From the NCBI GenBank assembly GCA_016840125.1, contig JAEOSY010000627.1:1-18386 (forward strand): a stretch of DNA of 18,386 nucleotides. The letters run 5' to 3'. Shown here one piece after another: positions 7,615 through 18,386 of the stretch. Origin of the DNA: Candidatus Helarchaeota archaeon (GTDB taxonomy: Archaea > Asgardarchaeota > Lokiarchaeia > Helarchaeales > HEL-GB-A). Each line of letters opens with the position of its first letter. Within the stretch, counting starts at the first letter, position 1. The position numbers and the translations under genes are program-made. Below the pieces are notes generated by a model. The model saw only the letters and a list, made by a program, of their open reading frames with translations, did not search any database and was not told the DNA's origin.

Positions 7615-8610
7615 TCAAGCTAATCGTCGTAAAATTGAATTCAGTAAATCAACAATTAGTTTTAAATCCTCTATTACTGGAACATACTCTTTGCGTTTTT
7701 GGTTTTCAGGATGGATGATGTTTCTAAACTCTTGAAGTATATATGAAACTCTTTTGCTGACTTTAGTTAATAGTTCTAAATCCTCTGAAATTTCGATCAA
7801 TTTACTAAATGTTAATTTTTTAATCGGGATTGGCTTTTTATATCGTTCTTTAATCAATTCATCTGTTCTTGGTTCATCTCCTAAAAGATGATCTAGAAGA
7901 ACTGCTTCAATAATACTGCCCGCCAATATTATTCCTGACTTGATGCAATCATTTTGATAACATTTTATAATTTCTTTATAATCAGCATTTAAAATCTGTC
8001 TAAAATCGGTATCCTTTATAATAGTAAAGCAGTTATTGAGGAACAATTCAGTTCCTGCGAAATTTTTTTTAATTTTTTCGGTAAATTCAAGTATTTTAAC
8101 TCGGAGTGTTGTTATGAATGCTTGACAATCGACCTTTTTCATTCCTATACCTAAATTCTTTGGTAAATTTCGGTCATATTTTTTAATCTGATTTAATAAC
8201 GGTGTCTGAACCTGAAAGGAAGCAAATTCTAAATCTGATTTTAAAAACTCTTCTAAGGTTATTATAGGTGCAGGATTTTTCATAGTTAATATTTTCTGAT
8301 AAACTTTAATAGGAATATTAGGAACATTAATTTCTTCATTTTTATCCCTATCAAAGAACTTTATCAGATGAGTTCGGTATTCAGGGACTTGTTCTAAGTC
8401 TGGATAGCCCTGAAGCTCGTTTTTTATCCATTTTAAATCATCATCAATGTTATATGTTATACAAATCTTCATACAAATTTCAAGAACCTTTGTAACTTCG
8501 AACTCTTTGATTGGTTTTTTTAGCTGCTCATCAATGAAATTAAGCTGTTCTTCCAAGTAACTCACAACTTTTATTTTTGAATCATCCTGGCCATATAATC
8601 CCCATTTCAT
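7615..8610 (-). CDS. AbiTii-domain protein with C-terminal HEPN-like domain (abortive infection)
   Basis: This is a 331-residue protein. The N-terminal half (about 15-185) matches the AbiTii abortive-infection domain: a helical start, KVLEICMKICITYNIDDDLKW (41-61), the hallmark NELQGYP followed by EYR (64-79), and the closing RVKILEFTEKIKK (170-182). The C-terminal part (about 215-331) looks like a HEPN-type RNase domain: SGIILAGSIIEAVLLDHLL (225-243), then EFRNIIHPENQ (294-304), where Arg296, Asn297 and His300 fit the RN-x-x-H signature of HEPN nucleases. Expected role: phage-triggered RNA cleavage or growth arrest in the cytosol. The ATG at 8610 overlaps the ApeA-like gene by 29 bp, so the two are co-transcribed. 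The family assignment is by eye. Confidence 0.8.
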   Translation of the reverse strand: MKWGLYGQDDSKIKVVSYLEEQLNFIDEQLKKPIKEFEVTKVLEICMKICITYNIDDDLKWIKNELQGYPDLEQVPEYRTHLIKFFDRDKNEEINVPNIPIKVYQKILTMKNPAPIITLEEFLKSDLEFASFQVQTPLLNQIKKYDRNLPKNLGIGMKKVDCQAFITTLRVKILEFTEKIKKNFAGTELFLNNCFTIIKDTDFRQILNADYKEIIKCYQNDCIKSGIILAGSIIEAVLLDHLLGDEPRTDELIKERYKKPIPIKKLTFSKLIEISEDLELLTKVSKRVSYILQEFRNIIHPENQKRKEYVPVIEDLKLIVDLLNSILRRLA

Positions 8611-10000
8611 ATGTAAAGCGTTGGCTCCTTTTTAAAAGTGTGTTAATATTTTCTAGTTCTAAGCCAGTCTCTTTCAAGAGGCATACAAGTAATAATAATT
8701 TCAACTGTTGATTAATTCGCCTTAATTCCTTTTTGGATGCAACATTTTTCTTGGGTTCCTTCGAATGGTGGATTAGATAGTTTCTAGTACTTATGACTTT
8801 TTGAAAAAAAAGACTCCATTCATCTTCAGGTATGAACTTGTTTGTAACAAGTTTTAGACTTTTGAGGAGTTCCTTCAGTTCCTCTCGTAAAGTAATTCGA
8901 TTTGATAATTTATCTTCAATAAACTCTCGATACTCAGGGAAATTTTTGATTACATCCTTTTTTAATCGTCTAAATTCAAAGGTAGGTATTTTTTTTCTTT
9001 CCATATCAACAAAATTGCTCTGATATGCCTCAAAAGCAATTATTAATCTAAGAAATTTAGTTTCAGGGGTCATAGTGGAATCCTGAAATGTACTAAAGTA
9101 GAAATCACAGACTGGTTGGAGCTTTTCAGCATTATTTAACCAATGCTGGAGCATTTTTCCGAGCTTTTCTTGAATATTTTTGTAGAGGATGAGAATATCA
9201 TATACATCTAAGGTCTTTAGTGTGAATAATTCTCCCGAAGATTTGTTGAAGATTTCACCTCCACCAAAAGTTAATTCATTATATCCTCGTAATGATAAAA
9301 TTTTTACTGGTTTGAAAATCAGAAGTGTTAGGAAATCTCGCAGGTGATTAGCTACATCGAGGCAATAACCAAATTTTTCTGTTTTGGAAAAAAAAATATT
9401 TACTCTCGCATTCTGTTTATAAATTATTTCGGCACTAGCAATATTAAAACGAGGTTTAATCGTAGCTGGTTCTTTAGTGACCGAAAGGCTTAGGGTAATC
9501 TCCTCTTTTTGACTTTTTGTCAGTTTAATTTCTTCGTACGAGCTGTATTTTAAGAGATGACTTGGATCTTTCGATTTAATGTATTCCTCCTTAAAAAGAG
9601 ACTTATTAACCCATTCATGCAGTCCTGTAAATTCAACATTAAGAGTATTAAATTTGATTTGTTCTTCATTCAGAAATTGAACTCCATTAAAAACTACCCC
9701 TACTTCATAAATTGCATTGTATCCACCTACATCTTGATAAGTACCCTCTCTAAAAAAAGAATTGAAGAGTGTTATTTGTTTATTTAATGGATCAGTGCTT
9801 GATATTACGTCTCCTATAATAATTTTAGGAGCTCGTCCTAAGACACCTAATGAATAAGGTCTTTCTGAATTTTTAATGGATTCATCATCTATAACATCTA
9901 GAGTTGTCTTCATGTAAGGTATTACTCTTAAAGTGCCCATTAGTCTTTTCTCAGTGTTATTGGGTACCCACCATTTGCCCTTGGCAACTAATTCCTTCAA
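8582..10000 (-). CDS. apeA: ApeA-like HEPN anti-phage protein
   Basis: This is a 472-residue protein with the ApeA layout. The N-terminal beta-rich domain opens with GKWWVPNNTEKRLMGTLRV (8-26), the characteristic GxWW-x-P...GTL start, and continues to about residue 290 (probable sensor of phage components). The C-terminal helical HEPN domain (about 300-450) carries KVISTRNYLIHHSKE (401-415), with Arg406, Asn407 and His411 as the predicted RNase residues (Rx4H). ApeA is a known bacterial defence protein; a role as an infection-triggered RNase is inferred here. The start is TTG at 10000: the GGAGG at 10008-10012 sits 7 nt upstream, and no ATG in this frame fits as well. It overlaps the AbiTii-HEPN gene, making a two-gene HEPN cassette. 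Confidence 0.85.
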   Translation of the reverse strand: MKELVAKGKWWVPNNTEKRLMGTLRVIPYMKTTLDVIDDESIKNSERPYSLGVLGRAPKIIIGDVISSTDPLNKQITLFNSFFREGTYQDVGGYNAIYEVGVVFNGVQFLNEEQIKFNTLNVEFTGLHEWVNKSLFKEEYIKSKDPSHLLKYSSYEEIKLTKSQKEEITLSLSVTKEPATIKPRFNIASAEIIYKQNARVNIFFSKTEKFGYCLDVANHLRDFLTLLIFKPVKILSLRGYNELTFGGGEIFNKSSGELFTLKTLDVYDILILYKNIQEKLGKMLQHWLNNAEKLQPVCDFYFSTFQDSTMTPETKFLRLIIAFEAYQSNFVDMERKKIPTFEFRRLKKDVIKNFPEYREFIEDKLSNRITLREELKELLKSLKLVTNKFIPEDEWSLFFQKVISTRNYLIHHSKEPKKNVASKKELRRINQQLKLLLLVCLLKETGLELENINTLLKRSQRFTYEMGIIWPG

Positions 10001-11250: not shown

Positions 11251-12450
11251 CTATTTAAAGTAAGTCTCCATCTTTTCCAAGATATTTTTTACCTTCATTT
11301 GAGTCTCAGTTCTATAATAACCAGAGGCCTCTTCAATTGCTTTGAAAAAAGCAATAAAATCATTAATATACTCTGTAATTAAAATAGTCTCTATGTTGTT
11401 CCTTTGACATTTTTTTAGATTCATTTTATCCTGTTTTAATAACTTTTCAGAATATATTGCAATAGAATTATGAGGATTACCAATTCTTGAATAACGAAAG
11501 AAATTATCTATATCATCCTTTATTATAAAAGGTTCATACACAATTCTTCTATTCTTTTGGTGCAAAATATAGGGAATAAGTTCAAATAATTCAGATTCTC
11601 CTATAAACAAGATTCGGTTTTTAAAGAAGGGTTTCCTTAAAAAACTCCAAATCGTATCATAAAAAACATTTTCTGAAAAATGCAGGTCAGAAAAGTTATA
11701 CTCGATTTTTTCTATAGGAAGCTCAAAATACCGAGTTGTATCTTGCTGAAGTATTTGAGCCAATAAATGGGCAATATTCATTGATAAATAATAACGATCT
11801 CCGTGTGAAATTCCATTAATAAAGACTTTATTTTTCAATAAATCATTATTAGTATGAGTTTGAAATAATTGATACCACCAAAACGTGAGTGGGTATCCCC
11901 CATCTACTTGGATCTTTATCATATTATTCTCTCCCTTTAGAAAATTCAACATTCTTGAATTACTACAAATCTGATTACAAATAAATAAATATGCAAATGA
12001 TTTTACACAAAATTCTGGTAAAAACGCATAATTTCGATAATGTTGAAGTTGGGATATAAAATCTGCTAAGTGCCTCTCACTTATTTTTTTGAATGATTTT
12101 ATAAAATAGTCTCTCTCTTTAAACAAAATTCGTGCTTGGTGCTTAAAAACGTCATTATAGATTTTGGTCTTTTCCAAAGATGTTAGCTTATAAAAAGTGA
12201 CATCAATTAGATCATTATCCATTAATTTTCGTGCTAATCTGATTTTAGTTTTTATATCCCATCCTCTAATATCCTGTTTTTTTAATAGGAAGTTATTTGA
12301 TTCTTTGAGATTGTGAATAAAAAGATCTAGCTCGTTCAATTCATTAAATTCGACTTGGGTAAAAATGATAAATGGATCTTGAATTGTACCACTCTCATCA
12401 AATCCGATGATTTTAACATTCTTAGCCAAAGGTTTTGAGCTTTCATACAT
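11251..12450 (-). CDS. DUF3800-like RNase H-fold protein with C-terminal alpha/beta domain
   Basis: This is a 399-residue protein. The first strand reads KIIGFDESGTI (13-23), the DESG signature of DUF3800-type RNase H-fold proteins (Asp18 as first metal ligand). Further candidate acids are Asp183 in IQVDGGYP and Asp218 in SHGDRYYLSMNIAHLLAQ (215-232). The last stretch resembles the family's closing Q-x-AD-L motif, but here reads NIAH, so one ligand may be changed. Residues about 278-375 look like a separate alpha/beta unit (RILFIGESELFEL, SIAIYSEKLL, IETILITEYIND). DUF3800 proteins are often found in defence loci and are presumed nucleases. It lies 220 bp downstream of the giant Cas1-DHH gene, in the same direction. 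The ATG at 12450 is close to an AT-rich promoter-like stretch. Family call moderate. Confidence 0.6.
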   Translation of the reverse strand: MYESSKPLAKNVKIIGFDESGTIQDPFIIFTQVEFNELNELDLFIHNLKESNNFLLKKQDIRGWDIKTKIRLARKLMDNDLIDVTFYKLTSLEKTKIYNDVFKHQARILFKERDYFIKSFKKISERHLADFISQLQHYRNYAFLPEFCVKSFAYLFICNQICSNSRMLNFLKGENNMIKIQVDGGYPLTFWWYQLFQTHTNNDLLKNKVFINGISHGDRYYLSMNIAHLLAQILQQDTTRYFELPIEKIEYNFSDLHFSENVFYDTIWSFLRKPFFKNRILFIGESELFELIPYILHQKNRRIVYEPFIIKDDIDNFFRYSRIGNPHNSIAIYSEKLLKQDKMNLKKCQRNNIETILITEYINDFIAFFKAIEEASGYYRTETQMKVKNILEKMETYFK

Positions 12451-12670: not shown

Positions 12671-15600
12671 TTAAAACTCTCTGAATTTCATAGTGTTATT
12701 AGGTATTTTAGGGCGCTCATTCTTCAGAGCTAAATATCGCAATCCTTTTCTTAATCCAGATTGAAGAGCTGTTTCTATCTGTTCCTTTTCCGCATAATCT
12801 TGGAGCATTTCCAAATTATTCAAGATAGTATTTGAGATGTCATCAATTTCCTTCCAAGTGAAATACAATTGTAATTCAGTTAGGAAATCTTCCCACGTCT
12901 GAGTAATAATCCAAGGGTGGAGTGGGGGGAAGGGGTAGAAAAGAGGGAGAAGGGCATTGGATAAAGTTTCGACATCAGCTTCTTGAAATTCTTCCTTAGA
13001 TAATGCTTGAATTCTTTTTGTGTCTTGCTCTCCTACTGTTTTAAGATCGTCCCTCAATCTCCAAAGGTATCTAAGAAGCTGGTTAAATTCAAAGAATTGA
13101 AGTGTCAATTTCTGTAGGAACTTTTCAAAGGATGATACGTCTGAATGAACGCGATTAAAGTACATTCCATGCCCCTCTTGACGTGTATCCCCCCCATACT
13201 GTTCTAAAACCTGTAAATTGACTTTACTATTATAGATTGAATAATTCCCGTTGGGCCATAAAATGAGGTCAAAAGATCGGTTGGGTTTGAGTTGCTCCAG
13301 ATAAGCTTGTAAATTCTGAATATTCCCCGCATTGGGCTTGAATTGGCAGACCAGATACTTCATGCGATAGATAGTCTCCCGGATATAAGGCAATCGGTCA
13401 AGTTTTCTTTCTAATTCGGCAAATTCATTAAGGATAGGGGGAGTAGGAACGGTGAAGTCAATGGTTTCTTGGAGGGTTTCACTAAAATCGGATAGATGTA
13501 CCTCGTCAGGCGATTTCATGGCAGGGCGCGTAATTTTGACCACGTTCGGAGCTTCGAGAATGGTTCCCGAGTCATTAAACTGTTGAATCAAATGCACCCG
13601 TCTACGGGTCGATCTTACAAAAATCTTGCTCTTGATCGCACCACGCACGCGAAGGGGAAGGCGGGGGTGAATCAACTGATCTTCAGGATCGAAGAGGGTA
13701 GAATTTCTTGTGATAAGTAAGGATGTATCAGTACCGTGTATTATTTGTTGCAAGTCATTGATGAATCGGTGTTGAAGATCACCTAATTTACTCCAAAACA
13801 AGTAGGGGCGAATAGTTTGCTCGGCTAGATGCTCTTCGAGGAGGTTAAAGACCGAGGGGAGGATGATGAGGCAGATGTTCAATAGCTTGATAAGAGTTCG
13901 GAGGTGATTTTTGAGAAAAGAGTCTAGTGTCCGAAAATCCTTAATTTGGGTGAAATGTAATGCGGTCTGCAAGGAAGAGAGGGGAATTCCAAAACGGAGG
14001 AGGTGTTTGAATTGCAGGGTGTGATTGGTTGTATCAATATAGAGAATGGTAGGGGGTGGCATGAAATTGTCGGGGGGATGGTGCGTGAGATAGGTATGGA
14101 TGAGATAATGAAGCAGGGAGGTGATTGTGAATCGATCCCGCCAGTGGGTGTAAAGGATGGAAACTTGGTTACGGGGAAGCGTGAAAGTTTGCTTCTCTGA
14201 AAAGGGAAAGGAAATTGGGGGGAGAACCTCTTTCTCTTCGTCAAGATCTCTTAATATTCCATCAATGAATCCGATGGGGATCTCATAGGTGATCTGGTTT
14301 CGTATTTCATACCGCCACCAATAATATTTTGAAGTGGGGAGGGTTGCTACATTCAGGGGATCATCTGGAAGAAGGTCGGCGGGGTTCTCCGTAAGTACGC
14401 TCTTCGAAATCCACTCTATGACCTTATCTAACGGGCGATACCGATAGAGGTATAAACTCAATGGCGGGGGTCCCGTCCTAAGTGTGAGAGAGTAGACGCG
14501 TTGACGGGGGGTATAGATGGGGCCGGTGTAAGGGTGGGCATGAATGCCCTGATCCAGTAAAAGCCCGGAGACTCGCACTTGCTTGTTATAAGATCGCACG
14601 CTTAAGGTATGGTCGTGCCAGTAGCACACAACGGCATCGGGAAGATGGGGGGTGTAGTGGCGAAGGATCTCTCTGACGCGCGCAATGGGGAAGGACTGGC
14701 GGAATACGAGGAGGGCGAAGGTTTGCCCCGTGCTGGTGTTGTGGAGCGATCCATGTATGAGGGGGTCACTTAAAGGTTTCTTTTTAGGTTCATCGAGTGC
14801 GGGAGTGGGCGGCGGTTGCCGGAGCTGGCAGAGATGCTTAAAGAAGCGCGTCCAATTCTTACGGCGGCGTTGCCTTCGCGCCCAGTACGCCAAGAACCAA
14901 GCATACCAATTTTGGAGGTAATCAGAATCAGCAGGATACTTTAACCCTCCCGTAGATCGGACAACCAGCTTGGAATACAATTGAATGAGGTGTTTATGTC
15001 TTTTTGAAATCTCCGCAGGATCAAAGTCGCGTTTGAGCTCGTGCCAAAGAATCCGCCACGCATCGGTTTGAGTGTCATGATGGACATGTACCCCTACCTG
15101 TTGCTGTAAGATGGTTGGGGGGACGTTGGGATGGGCGTGGTGGTCGTACCAGTGCCATATGAGCAAGTCATCAAAGCCTCCCACTTGTTCCAGGTATTTC
15201 CGTTTGATGTTCCGGTAGACTTGCAGATCCTCTTGGATGGCAAAATCCGCGACGACGACTATATTCTGTGCTTCGTCGGTGAGTAATCGAGGGACTTGCT
15301 CTGTTAAGACTTTTTTCAAATAGAGCTGGTGGTGCGGATGGTTCTCTGCCACGATAACATGCACATTCGGCATGTGCTTGTAATATTTAATCATTAACAG
15401 GAGTGCGGAATTAAACCCATCCCGATCCCGATGTGTCACGATAATGACATTTTTCGGTAGACTGCGTACTTGCTCTTGCAGAGTGGTAGACACATCGGTC
15501 ACTGTAGGCACGCGGAGCTTTGGGCGATAGGGAGCTGATGGAACTCTATAATCGGCAATTTGCTGAATCCGGTAGTAATACCCTTTTACCTTTTGCATAT

Positions 15601-18386
15601 TGTCAACATTTCCAAACGCAATGAAGGGGGTGTGATTCTCCGAAACACCAAGTAGGAACTTTGCGAAATCCTGTGCTTCTTGGTGCATAATCTGTGTGAG
15701 AGAAAGTTCTTTCGGTTTGAATTCATTTTTTCGTTGGTAGAGGAATTTACGCACAGAAACCCGCCGGAAGAGTGCAGAAAGTCTGTTTTTACCTCTCTTT
15801 GTGAGGAAATAGACCCGGCGATTCCACTCATCTTGATCCGACTCAAAATCCGCGAGCGTAATTTCCCCCCGACGAATGGCTAAGAGGAGTTGATGGCGGA
15901 AGGGGGGGCGGTAGGCATCCATGAAATCAAAGAGGAATTCTCGATTGCGTTTTGTCTCTACTCTACGAGTAATTTGCCGGGGGGTTTGTGCGTCTTTTGG
16001 TTTATGGCGGCGTTTATGCAGGAGTCCCGCACCGGGGTAGTATTTGGAGAACCCTGCCTGCCCCAATGCCTCCGCTACTTCCTTCTGTAGCAGAAAGTAG
16101 AGATAATTCAGGGCTGCGTTGTACCGATCAAATGCCTTCGCACCGTAGTATAACGGGGTGCGAACATAGCGATGGCTTTGCCGACCCAGAAAGCGATATT
16201 TGCTGGGGAGGGCGTGCTTGATACCTAACCAAATGGCACTCTCCGCGTTCCCCTCTTGGGAACGTAACTTGTTGATGTAGTGAATGTAATCAATATCTTC
16301 CTGATTTTGATCTTCCAGTGCTTGCAGCTCCCGAATGGCAAAAAAGGAGAGGGTTACATGGTCGAGTTGCTTATAAACTAAATCCTGTATCGCTTTTGAG
16401 GGGAGGGAACTAGAGCTTATCAGGTCTTTCAGTTCATACGTGTAGAAAATGTTCGATTGCATCTTCGCCAGTATGAATTCATGCGCTTTCTCCGTCAATT
16501 CCTTCCCCTGTAAGGTCCATAGAGCCTCGCGTAACGCTTTCGCTCGTTCATCTTCGTCCTGAGCTGCTTGAATCTGTTGCTCAGATCGGGGGTGAATGGG
16601 AATTTGATGCGCCTTCAGGATCGCCCGCCCGGATTCGATTTCCCCTCCGGCGAGGATAATATCAAGGATTTCATCGAAAAAATAGGTTTTGCGGTATTGA
16701 TGATTGTAGTAGGTTTTCGCAAGGGGTAAATGGGATTTTTCCGTCTGAGTGACATACAATGTCCAGTCCTTTGGTAAAAAGATGGAACGGGGGGTCGGAT
16801 CAAGCGTAATAAAAGGCAACCCTTGTGCGTCCGTATCAAATTTCTCATCGGGGATGGTGGTATACAGTTGTCCGACGTACCGCCCTTGCCGAGTGCGCCA
16901 CAGTAAAATATTACAGTGCATACATTTCCGTAAGCGTTGGAGCGTCGGGATTTGTACCGTCCCCACCTTGCCGCATTGGGGGCATTTCACTTGTCCGTCA
17001 AGGACTTCGAAATCAGGGATCGAAATGCGACTCTCTAAGGTGTGCCGGAATTCATCACAGGCGGGATCTTGCCCAATCCGTTCCACCTTCCCCTTCGTGC
17101 ATTGCTTTCGTCGTGCGCGTTCCGACGTTCTAATGGTGGGGTCCTCTTTAAAAAAGACACACTCCTGACAGCGATCCTCTGTAGGGGGTAGGGGTACATA
17201 CTCAAAATGCCAGTAGCGTTCAAGGGGTCTCTTCCTCTTCGGGGAGTACTCCTTGCGTTTAATCACATCTCCCTGAAGGGTGCGGTTGAGGGCGGCATAG
17301 ATCGAGCTGACCGAGGCCGAGAGGTGATGGATTTCTTTTTTGGCAAAATATTGGGTGAGTTCGCTTTGGATCTCCTTGATGGTTGCACCCTTTCCTTTTC
17401 TTTTCCGTAAGATCTTTAAAATTGGGGTGCGATAATGAGAAACTGGGGTGAAAGAGGAGTGAGGGCGATTGAGAGGTTTCCGAATCCCGCACTCATCGGG
17501 TGATTGGAAGCGTTGGATCATCCGAGCGAGGCGGGGGGGCATAACTTTTTCATGTTCGAGAGCTTTTTTTGGGGAAATGGAATAGTATTGAATTTTTTTC
17601 CTTTTCTTCGCCCAAGTATGGAGCTTACTCCCCCTATAAATAGAATGAAAGCTGCTGGCGAGCCAAATCCCGACCCGACGAAGCACCTGTTCATCCCCCT
17701 CTGTTATCCCCTCCTTCTTTCGCAATAGTTTATTTTGGAGGAGTTTTTTGGCATGGTAGCGTTTCAAGAACCTCTTGATGGCGACCAACGGGACGGGGAG
17801 GCTCACCCACCGGGTTATTTCTCCAATGAGAAATTTACTGTAATGCAAATTAAATTGTTTATTACTGACCATTGGATTCTCTGCAAGTGGCGGACTCCCC
17901 TTTAATCCTCTGAATACGTTAGAAAGTGCAAAAAACAAAGAACTACATTGAAGAACTGCGTCCCAACTCTGGAAAAATTGAATTCCGCGAAGTGCCGCGT
18001 TGAGATCAAGCCCACTCGTCACAATGGCGTTGCCCAGATGGGTAAGACCATACTTTCCCTTCTGTTCTCGAATCAGTTCGTTCTCCAGTAAATCGGTTAG
18101 GATGGATTCAAAATTATACCGTTCTAATTCATCATCATTGAAATGAATGTTTTGATACCGTTCCAAATATGATACTAGTCGCTTTTTTGAGAACTGATGT
18201 CGGAACAGGGTTTCCAACATCAACCGAGGTAAATGACGGGGGCGCACCCGCGGCGGAGCCATTTCCAAGTGAAATCCTAAGATTTTTTTATAATCATCAT
18301 TGACTCTCACTTTGGTCTCATAGAACCAATCTCGCGGAAAGTAATCCCACCCCGGAAAATGATAAGACCCTAAATCTATGTGTGCG
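12671..18386 (-). CDS. Giant Cas1-DHH fusion protein (winged helix, zinc, Cas1, DHH/DHHA1, RecA-like), 5' end beyond window
   Basis: The protein has at least 1,879 residues (numbering from GTG 18310). The frame stays open to the edge and that GTG lacks a ribosome site, so the N-terminus is probably outside. Order: winged helix (about 25-97); second one (295-350); cysteines 381, 384, 404, 418; zinc ribbon CPQC/CMHC (443-466). Cas1 covers about 480-888, with an N-lobe (YFFDEILDIILAGGEIESG) and a catalytic lobe: Glu690, GRQSHRYVR, GAGLLHK (His765), FDFMDAYRP (Asp795, Asp798). DHH phosphoesterase follows: HRDRDGFNSA (960-969), VVVADFA (Asp1022), WYDHHAHP (1054-1061), DTQTDAW (1079-1085), then DHHA1-like LSVRSY...GIHAHP (1236-1260). 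Residues 1375-1600 resemble RadB/RecA with a lost Walker A. A second DHHA1-like stretch lies near 1680-1720. Inferred role: trims DNA ends (DHH) and integrates them (Cas1). It is more GC-rich than its neighbours. No Cas2 or CRISPR array accompanies it. Confidence 0.85.
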   Translation of the reverse strand, partial: AHIDLGSYHFPGWDYFPRDWFYETKVRVNDDYKKILGFHLEMAPPRVRPRHLPRLMLETLFRHQFSKKRLVSYLERYQNIHFNDDELERYNFESILTDLLENELIREQKGKYGLTHLGNAIVTSGLDLNAALRGIQFFQSWDAVLQCSSLFFALSNVFRGLKGSPPLAENPMVSNKQFNLHYSKFLIGEITRWVSLPVPLVAIKRFLKRYHAKKLLQNKLLRKKEGITEGDEQVLRRVGIWLASSFHSIYRGSKLHTWAKKRKKIQYYSISPKKALEHEKVMPPRLARMIQRFQSPDECGIRKPLNRPHSSFTPVSHYRTPILKILRKRKGKGATIKEIQSELTQYFAKKEIHHLSASVSSIYAALNRTLQGDVIKRKEYSPKRKRPLERYWHFEYVPLPPTEDRCQECVFFKEDPTIRTSERARRKQCTKGKVERIGQDPACDEFRHTLESRISIPDFEVLDGQVKCPQCGKVGTVQIPTLQRLRKCMHCNILLWRTRQGRYVGQLYTTIPDEKFDTDAQGLPFITLDPTPRSIFLPKDWTLYVTQTEKSHLPLAKTYYNHQYRKTYFFDEILDIILAGGEIESGRAILKAHQIPIHPRSEQQIQAAQDEDERAKALREALWTLQGKELTEKAHEFILAKMQSNIFYTYELKDLISSSSLPSKAIQDLVYKQLDHVTLSFFAIRELQALEDQNQEDIDYIHYINKLRSQEGNAESAIWLGIKHALPSKYRFLGRQSHRYVRTPLYYGAKAFDRYNAALNYLYFLLQKEVAEALGQAGFSKYYPGAGLLHKRRHKPKDAQTPRQITRRVETKRNREFLFDFMDAYRPPFRHQLLLAIRRGEITLADFESDQDEWNRRVYFLTKRGKNRLSALFRRVSVRKFLYQRKNEFKPKELSLTQIMHQEAQDFAKFLLGVSENHTPFIAFGNVDNMQKVKGYYYRIQQIADYRVPSAPYRPKLRVPTVTDVSTTLQEQVRSLPKNVIIVTHRDRDGFNSALLLMIKYYKHMPNVHVIVAENHPHHQLYLKKVLTEQVPRLLTDEAQNIVVVADFAIQEDLQVYRNIKRKYLEQVGGFDDLLIWHWYDHHAHPNVPPTILQQQVGVHVHHDTQTDAWRILWHELKRDFDPAEISKRHKHLIQLYSKLVVRSTGGLKYPADSDYLQNWYAWFLAYWARRQRRRKNWTRFFKHLCQLRQPPPTPALDEPKKKPLSDPLIHGSLHNTSTGQTFALLVFRQSFPIARVREILRHYTPHLPDAVVCYWHDHTLSVRSYNKQVRVSGLLLDQGIHAHPYTGPIYTPRQRVYSLTLRTGPPPLSLYLYRYRPLDKVIEWISKSVLTENPADLLPDDPLNVATLPTSKYYWWRYEIRNQITYEIPIGFIDGILRDLDEEKEVLPPISFPFSEKQTFTLPRNQVSILYTHWRDRFTITSLLHYLIHTYLTHHPPDNFMPPPTILYIDTTNHTLQFKHLLRFGIPLSSLQTALHFTQIKDFRTLDSFLKNHLRTLIKLLNICLIILPSVFNLLEEHLAEQTIRPYLFWSKLGDLQHRFINDLQQIIHGTDTSLLITRNSTLFDPEDQLIHPRLPLRVRGAIKSKIFVRSTRRRVHLIQQFNDSGTILEAPNVVKITRPAMKSPDEVHLSDFSETLQETIDFTVPTPPILNEFAELERKLDRLPYIRETIYRMKYLVCQFKPNAGNIQNLQAYLEQLKPNRSFDLILWPNGNYSIYNSKVNLQVLEQYGGDTRQEGHGMYFNRVHSDVSSFEKFLQKLTLQFFEFNQLLRYLWRLRDDLKTVGEQDTKRIQALSKEEFQEADVETLSNALLPLFYPFPPLHPWIITQTWEDFLTELQLYFTWKEIDDISNTILNNLEMLQDYAEKEQIETALQSGLRKGLRYLALKNERPKIPNNTMKFREF

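Follow-up and report, generated by a model that had tools for sequence, protein, structure and literature searches.

The gene at one end of the window (the whole 18,386-nt stretch of a Helarchaeota contig that was analysed) is most likely the C-terminal part of an Asgard helicase-Cas1-DHH-Rad51-like fusion protein, judged by its relatives. Its domains suggest that the fusion likely opens, trims and inserts DNA pieces by itself, and our tentative reading is that this one polypeptide serves a CRISPR-derived system as its DNA-capture enzyme. Table 1 lists the main features with their positions.

The ORF list of the window gives the gene as a single uninterrupted frame (protein P0002), which is open at the window edge, its 5' end running off the window. 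The frame has a GTG at 18310, but translation probably starts further upstream, since the codons ahead of this GTG align with the relatives. These relatives carry about 400-700 extra residues ahead of the window's first codons, including an SF2 helicase. Thus, the complete window protein would reach about 2,300-2,600 residues, a size that can be compared with those of the copies L001 and L002 (Table 1). The original prediction of Cas1 followed by DHH in one open frame is confirmed by the Cas1 profile, by the motifs and by the predicted fold. However, the protein was then seen as a stand-alone Cas1-DHH enzyme, and this is not supported: the relatives show a helicase ahead and a Rad51-like domain behind, and the latter was absent from that account. 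An artefact of assembly or frame, in which separate genes were joined, is extremely improbable. The window sequence is seen in one contig only, but nine other alignment rows with both Cas1 and DHH, from at least six assemblies, have the same order, the 1904 codons contain no stop and the active sites are conserved. The relatives therefore refute an artefact as the source of the architecture and rule out an assembly chimera.

The Cas1 domain matches Pfam PF01867 at residues 693-795 (3.6e-12; 46.5 bits against a cut-off of 22.3) and the Cas1 models of PADLOC (8.7e-16). TIGR00287 matches at 3.3e-15, yet below its own cut-off, and the Cas1 of A. fulgidus is matched by sequence at 1.7e-4. In the predicted structure (pLDDT 81), this region matches Cas1, including Cas6-RT-Cas1 structures, and RecJ and other DHH enzymes are matched behind it, in agreement with the original assignment; the fold matches listed (VIA list) are mainly Cas1. 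The catalytic set of Cas1 consists of Glu, His, Asp and a further acidic residue, as described in PMC9939771. The tetrad was originally placed at Glu690, His765, Asp795 and Asp798, in a numbering that equals the P0002 number minus 25. The His and both Asp residues stand (H790, D820 and D823 of P0002), but the catalytic Glu is residue 686 of that numbering, which is E711. We take E711 and not position 715 as the catalytic Glu because all 23 fusion rows have Glu at position 711, which the PDB alignment pairs with the Cas1 Glu; E715, the former Glu690, is replaced by Asp, Ala or Thr in three rows. The Glu/His/Asp/Asp tetrad is present in all 16 rows of the window clade, while in all seven rows of a sister clade (described below) the last Asp is replaced by Glu, like in canonical Cas1. 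By fold and catalytic residues, the domain belongs to the Cas1 superfamily.

The region behind Cas1 contains the DHH motifs I (HRDRDGF, within HRDRDGFNSA), II (VADF, within VVVADF) and III (WYDHH), and its second half may, by eye, be a DHHA1-like domain. The Pfam scan reported no DHH family for P0002, and the DHH profile had no match among PDB sequences at E <= 1; the assignment follows from the motifs and the fold. By these, the region is a DHH (RecJ-like) phosphoesterase, with putative nuclease activity. DHH is present in 10 of the 16 window-clade rows, where some of the six DHH-less rows are fragments, and in none of the seven sister-clade rows. In relative P0007, the flanks on both sides are present and DHH is missing. 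Within the fusion family, DHH is an optional module. Further toward the C-terminus, all 38 PDB sequence matches at E <= 5 belong to the RadA/Rad51 family, and the best match of the fold search reaches 1.9e-9. By eye, the Walker A loop of this Rad51-like domain is missing in eight of eight aligned rows. As for the winged helices and the zinc ribbon that had been proposed ahead of Cas1, the ribbon holds, with four cysteines invariant in seven of seven rows and no library scoring it above its cut-off, whereas the winged-helix region gives weak matches only. The presence of Cas1 and DHH with conserved active-site motifs in one polypeptide is supported, and so is the idea that end-processing and integration are combined there. 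Both roles originally offered for it, a capture machine working alone and the integrase of a mobile element, are still candidates.

Table 1. Positions of features in the window (plain numbers) and at related loci (numbers after a locus name)
Feature	Position	Strand	Remarks
Fusion ORF P0002	12671..18385	-	1904 codons; N-terminal helicase, as in relatives, expected past 18386
N-terminal winged-helix region, P0002 about 26-400	17186..18310	-	weak; HTH_45 0.0072, below cut-off
Zinc ribbon, Cys 468, 471, 488, 491 of P0002	16904..16990	-	conservation; weak library matches
Cas1 domain, P0002 529-925	15611..16801	-	profile, PDB sequence alignment, fold, conservation
Likely catalytic E711, H790, D820, D823	16253-16255, 16016-16018, 15926-15928, 15917-15919	-	
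DHH phosphoesterase region, P0002 977-1329	14399..15457	-	motifs, fold; WYDHH at 15137-15151
Rad51/RadA-like domain without Walker A loop, P0002 about 1387-1620	13526..14227	-	sequence and fold
C-terminal tail, P0002 about 1656-1904, and stop codon	12671..13420	-	predicted structure only, pLDDT variable
Three imperfect 41-nt repeat copies	10738-10883		gene-poor stretch; no recognised array
AbiTii-like and ApeA-HEPN genes	7615-10000	-	strand of the fusion
Fusion copies of G001	L001, L002, L055, L056		2600 aa, 2766 aa, 2147 aa, cut by contig end
DHH-less fusion copy of G001	L003		1439 aa; leucine-rich repeats at end
Left end of duplicated unit	L055:5652, L056:5915		sharp; hairpin in L055, imperfect in L056
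TnpB (Cas12f-like) genes	L001:6496-7971, L055:5764-7167, L056:6028-7431		head-to-head with fusions
Winged-helix genes beside two G001 fusions	L055:13918-14454, L002:16986-17507		related to each other
RNA element copies	L068-L072, L074-L079, L081-L083; solo copies L114-L130		G177, G178, G175

A search of 5.8 billion proteins yielded 5404 candidates, of which six are relatives at E <= 0.001. Five of these six have PF00270/PF00271 helicase domains ahead of Cas1, and the helicase was rescanned in four of them (P0003, P0004, P0005 and P0007); the sixth, P0008, begins just ahead of the zinc ribbon. The helicase is also found in all five copies of the Helarchaeota genome G001. With a query from the sister clade, four proteins were found. 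The source label of relative P0003 is Candidatus Deferrimicrobium. Among 227 Asgard genomes, Cas1 scores over the cut-off in 69 (71 at E <= 0.001), and it lies in frames of more than 1,000 aa eight times, five in G001, two in G177 and one in G178; this count is a lower bound, as the search missed further sister-clade copies of G177. When the same 227 genomes were searched with the fusion alignment, at least ten matched at 1e-20, most over the helicase part only, and this figure is likewise a lower bound, two first-look candidates being scored per genome. A DNA-pattern scan of the species collection, which missed the sister clade, returned 23 loci: three fusions, all in Helarchaeota, and 20 partial matches to the Cas1 region. 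In viral contigs, 68 stretches fit a pattern and none encodes a relative; plasmid and phage records gave no match at 1e-5. We also noted that two DHH-less versions, L003 and P0014, end in leucine-rich repeats.

The Helarchaeota genome G001 (5.8 Mb; its locus L001 is named LW55_61) encodes five fusion copies, which account for all five of its PF01867 matches, and a profile search of the genome gave no Cas2. Its sole RAMP match and the L003 fusion are about 4 kb apart, and the other four fusions have no RAMP nearby. Two copies, L055 and L056, are 80.8% identical over a shared 8.1 kb. The shared unit starts about 112 bp past a TnpB gene and runs through the fusion. In L055, a short frame resembling the beginning of an acyl-CoA synthetase gene precedes the left end of the unit, and the remainder of the interrupted gene was not found nearby. 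Three of the six TnpB genes of this genome (PF07282 matches) are head-to-head with three of the five fusions, and two of these three pairs are the one duplicated unit of L055 and L056. With an assumed, uncounted 5,500 genes, the chance of two independent TnpB pairings in four loci is about 7e-6. The winged-helix gene at L055 is TBPIP/Hop2-like at 1.6e-4, just below the cut-off. Beside L056 we observed a PD-Lambda-4-like protein (3.6e-29).

Two other Asgard genomes, G177 and G178, contain helicase-Cas1 fusions of about 1,330 aa. In the tree, this sister clade joins the window clade against 11 canonical Cas1 sequences with a support of 100/99; the 11 rows, drawn by a DNA-pattern search, are not a representative sample, and one of them, L017, forms a long branch. 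RAMP genes are found at 15 loci, 11 in G177 and four in G178, and those run through PADLOC match Csm3, down to 4.3e-10. The helicase-Cas1 gene adjoins the RAMP gene at eight of the 15 loci (L068-L072, L078, L079, in two pieces, and L081, cut by a contig end). An HD-type gene accompanies the RAMP gene at 14 of the 15; it is missing at L077 and in pieces at L074. We take this companion as an HD-type protein because of its conserved LLHDFVH and NHH motifs; PF01966 is matched weakly, in five of 12 members (best 0.0025), and no PDB sequence matches at E <= 5. Thus, the original remark that no other CRISPR component accompanies the fusion holds inside the window but not for the relatives, given the RAMP gene near L003 and the RAMP, HD-type and RNA genes of the sister clade. 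The placement of the sister family beside Cas7-like genes and structured RNAs hints at an unrecognised CRISPR relative. The G178 locus L125:3340-3891 and the G177 locus L070 have similar neighbours, and G178 retains the first 17 helicase-Cas1 codons and the RNA element, as if the remainder of the unit had been lost. A third genome, G175, is fragmented and contains a C-terminal piece of a window-type fusion (L039); no RAMP gene was found in this fragmented assembly. At L039:2034-2996, a gene that by eye is RadA-like faces the fusion fragment.

The RNA element beside the RAMP and HD-type genes is about 131 nt long, and its fold covaries. Across 29 copies, 15 of 26 pairs show double-sided changes and 95.3% of cells are paired, in an alignment that was fitted to the model and is biased towards it; a free alignment of 12 copies gave double changes in 12 of 26 pairs. 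None of 500 shuffles scored as high, and slid versions paired at 42-56%. The RNA is present at 14 of the 15 RAMP loci, on the same strand as the genes, and is missing at L080. There are at least 25 copies in G177, at least 20 in G178 and at least three in G175, the last on contigs other than that of the L039 fusion piece, and none in G001 among the 150 candidates scored per genome. Rfam had no match in the window or in L001, L055, L068, L070 and L072.

The sequence 3' of the RNA scaffold differs between copies, and many of them have a terminator-like hairpin after it. A comparison of 34 of the 48 copies (ten copies directly before HD-type genes and four weak ones were set aside) showed that, on the same strand, this variable part resembles its own downstream flank more than the flanks of other copies (permutation P 0.001), but not in antisense (0.65). 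The resemblance exceeds that to every other flank in seven of the 34. At L077, the variable part copies the start of an apparent pyrD gene (25 nt, 96%), and at L079 and L081 it copies, by eye, part of the downstream gene, while the flank match of L126 is due to a tandem gene copy; further flank matches are those of L069, L078 and L130. A GIY-YIG-like frame was seen by eye directly after the RNA at three loci. Two of the many variable segments, used as exact 21- and 24-nt patterns, had no viral match. A guide is one reading of a variable part that resembles its own flank; a leader, a riboswitch and the trace of a local duplication are others.

The window itself has defence genes downstream of the fusion, ApeA-HEPN (PDC-S58, 4.5e-61) and AbiTii (1.9e-11), both by PADLOC. 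No Cas2, RAMP or HD-type protein is present among the scanned ORFs, and no CRISPR array was recognised in the window, which ends at 18386; for lack of an array, the window is not read as a canonical CRISPR locus. No convincing terminal inverted repeats or target-site duplication were found in the window, one end of the gene lying beyond its edge, and no family B DNA polymerase among the subset of its ORFs that was scanned. The structured RNA has no match in the window, where the best candidate scores 13.9 bits (E 0.17, filters off). A small GTPase encoded in the window has its best match in G001 (57% identity) among the 227 Asgard genomes searched, 95 of which match at E <= 1e-40; on this basis the window is most likely from an Asgard archaeon near Helarchaeota. 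Downstream of the fusion, at 11251-12450, a 399-aa frame may be DUF3800-like from its start, by eye; it has no Pfam or PADLOC match and one weak NCBIfam match (7e-4, far below the cut-off).

Cas1 normally depends on other proteins for making and trimming the DNA that it inserts. From the observed domain order, folds, catalytic motifs and sister-clade gene setting, we infer how a capture enzyme might work in one polypeptide. The helicase would open DNA or move along it, and the DHH domain would trim single-stranded ends in the manner of RecJ. The Rad51-like domain, which lacks the ATP-binding loop, may keep single strands bound or attach to a RadA filament of the host, and Cas1 would link the trimmed 3' ends with a target site. 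We prefer this reading, tentative as it is, on account of the RAMP, HD-type and RNA setting of the sister clade, the RAMP gene beside L003 and the defence genes around copies, in the window and next to L056. It is weakened in that the window shows neither a RAMP gene nor the RNA, and also by the TnpB neighbours and duplicated units, which speak for a mobile element.

The fusion could then be the integrase (transposase) of a casposon-like mobile element with TnpB, in which insertion would be due to Cas1 and end processing to the helicase, DHH and Rad51-like domains. The five copies in one genome, the head-to-head TnpB genes and the duplicated unit, with its sharp left end, its hairpin and the apparently interrupted acyl-CoA synthetase gene, argue for such an element. 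On the other hand, no second end, inverted repeats or target duplications came to light, and the rest of the interrupted gene was not found nearby; viral, plasmid and phage collections yielded no relative, two of the three TnpB pairs are one duplicated unit, and the sister loci pair the helicase-Cas1 core with RAMP and HD-type genes. We therefore consider a mobile-element integrase rather unlikely. Another reading is an enzyme of DNA repair or recombination whose helicase, RecJ-like and Rad51-like domains would work on breaks, with Cas1 serving either as a structure-specific nuclease or to join fragments. Three folds typical of break repair and the gene that, by eye, is RadA-like and adjoins the G175 relative are in its favour, and Cas1 and Fen1 are reported to have equivalent functions in archaeal DNA repair (PMC9051519). 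However, the distribution is patchy, with long Cas1 frames in three of 227 Asgard genomes and a fragment in a fourth (counts from searches that may miss copies), several diverged copies occur in one genome, and the neighbours are RAMP, TnpB and defence genes, so that a repair function seems improbable.

A bolder version of the CRISPR-derived reading, to which we give little credence, is an array-free, RNA-guided CRISPR relative of Asgard archaea. Its stand-alone RNAs, each a fixed scaffold with a variable 3' guide of its own, would act with the Cas7-like RAMP, the HD nuclease and the helicase; the helicase-Cas1 protein would write guides behind the scaffolds, and the window megaprotein would be the most elaborate writer, with trimming and strand-holding built in. 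Returning to the preferred capture enzyme, a polypeptide that unites a helicase, a trimming nuclease, a strand holder and an integrase would show every step of substrate handling within one molecule, in a directly testable form. Likewise, the sister loci, with helicase-Cas1, RAMP and HD-type genes and an RNA with variable 3' ends, make the programmability of array-less Asgard CRISPR derivatives testable.

Diverged Asgard Cas1 systems are already published. According to PMC8730458, which cites Makarova et al. 2020 (PMC7307682), CRISPR derivatives named ARAMP, most with a distinct Cas1, are encoded by Asgard archaea, and the Cas1 homologues of these archaea show an unprecedented diversity, some being possibly linked to new mobile elements. 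The fusions described here share with ARAMP the Asgard hosts, a distinct Cas1 and a Cas7-like RAMP, which accompanies the sister clade and one of the Helarchaeota copies. They differ from ARAMP, as it is described in PMC8730458, in that no RAMP was found in the window, DHH and Rad51-like domains are in the same polypeptide and a structured RNA occurs in the sister clade. Our literature search, with most subscription papers outside its scope, found no description of a helicase-Cas1-DHH fusion. The Cas1 fold and tetrad are common to the fusion and to the Cas1 of Cas1-Cas2 adaptation, but Cas2 is found neither in the window nor in G001, and the window has no array. Compared to casposase, the Cas1 of casposons, the fusion has a helicase, DHH and Rad51-like domain attached, and inverted repeats were not found. 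The DHH region is like RecJ and other DHH enzymes in motifs and fold, whereas here it is placed inside a Cas1 fusion and its activity is putative; similarly, the Rad51-like domain is like RadA/Rad51 in fold and profile and differs in the missing Walker A loop. In RT-Cas1 and Cas6-RT-Cas1, too, Cas1 is fused to an enzyme that prepares its substrate; there the partner is a reverse transcriptase, and here the partners are a helicase, a DHH phosphoesterase and a Rad51-like domain.
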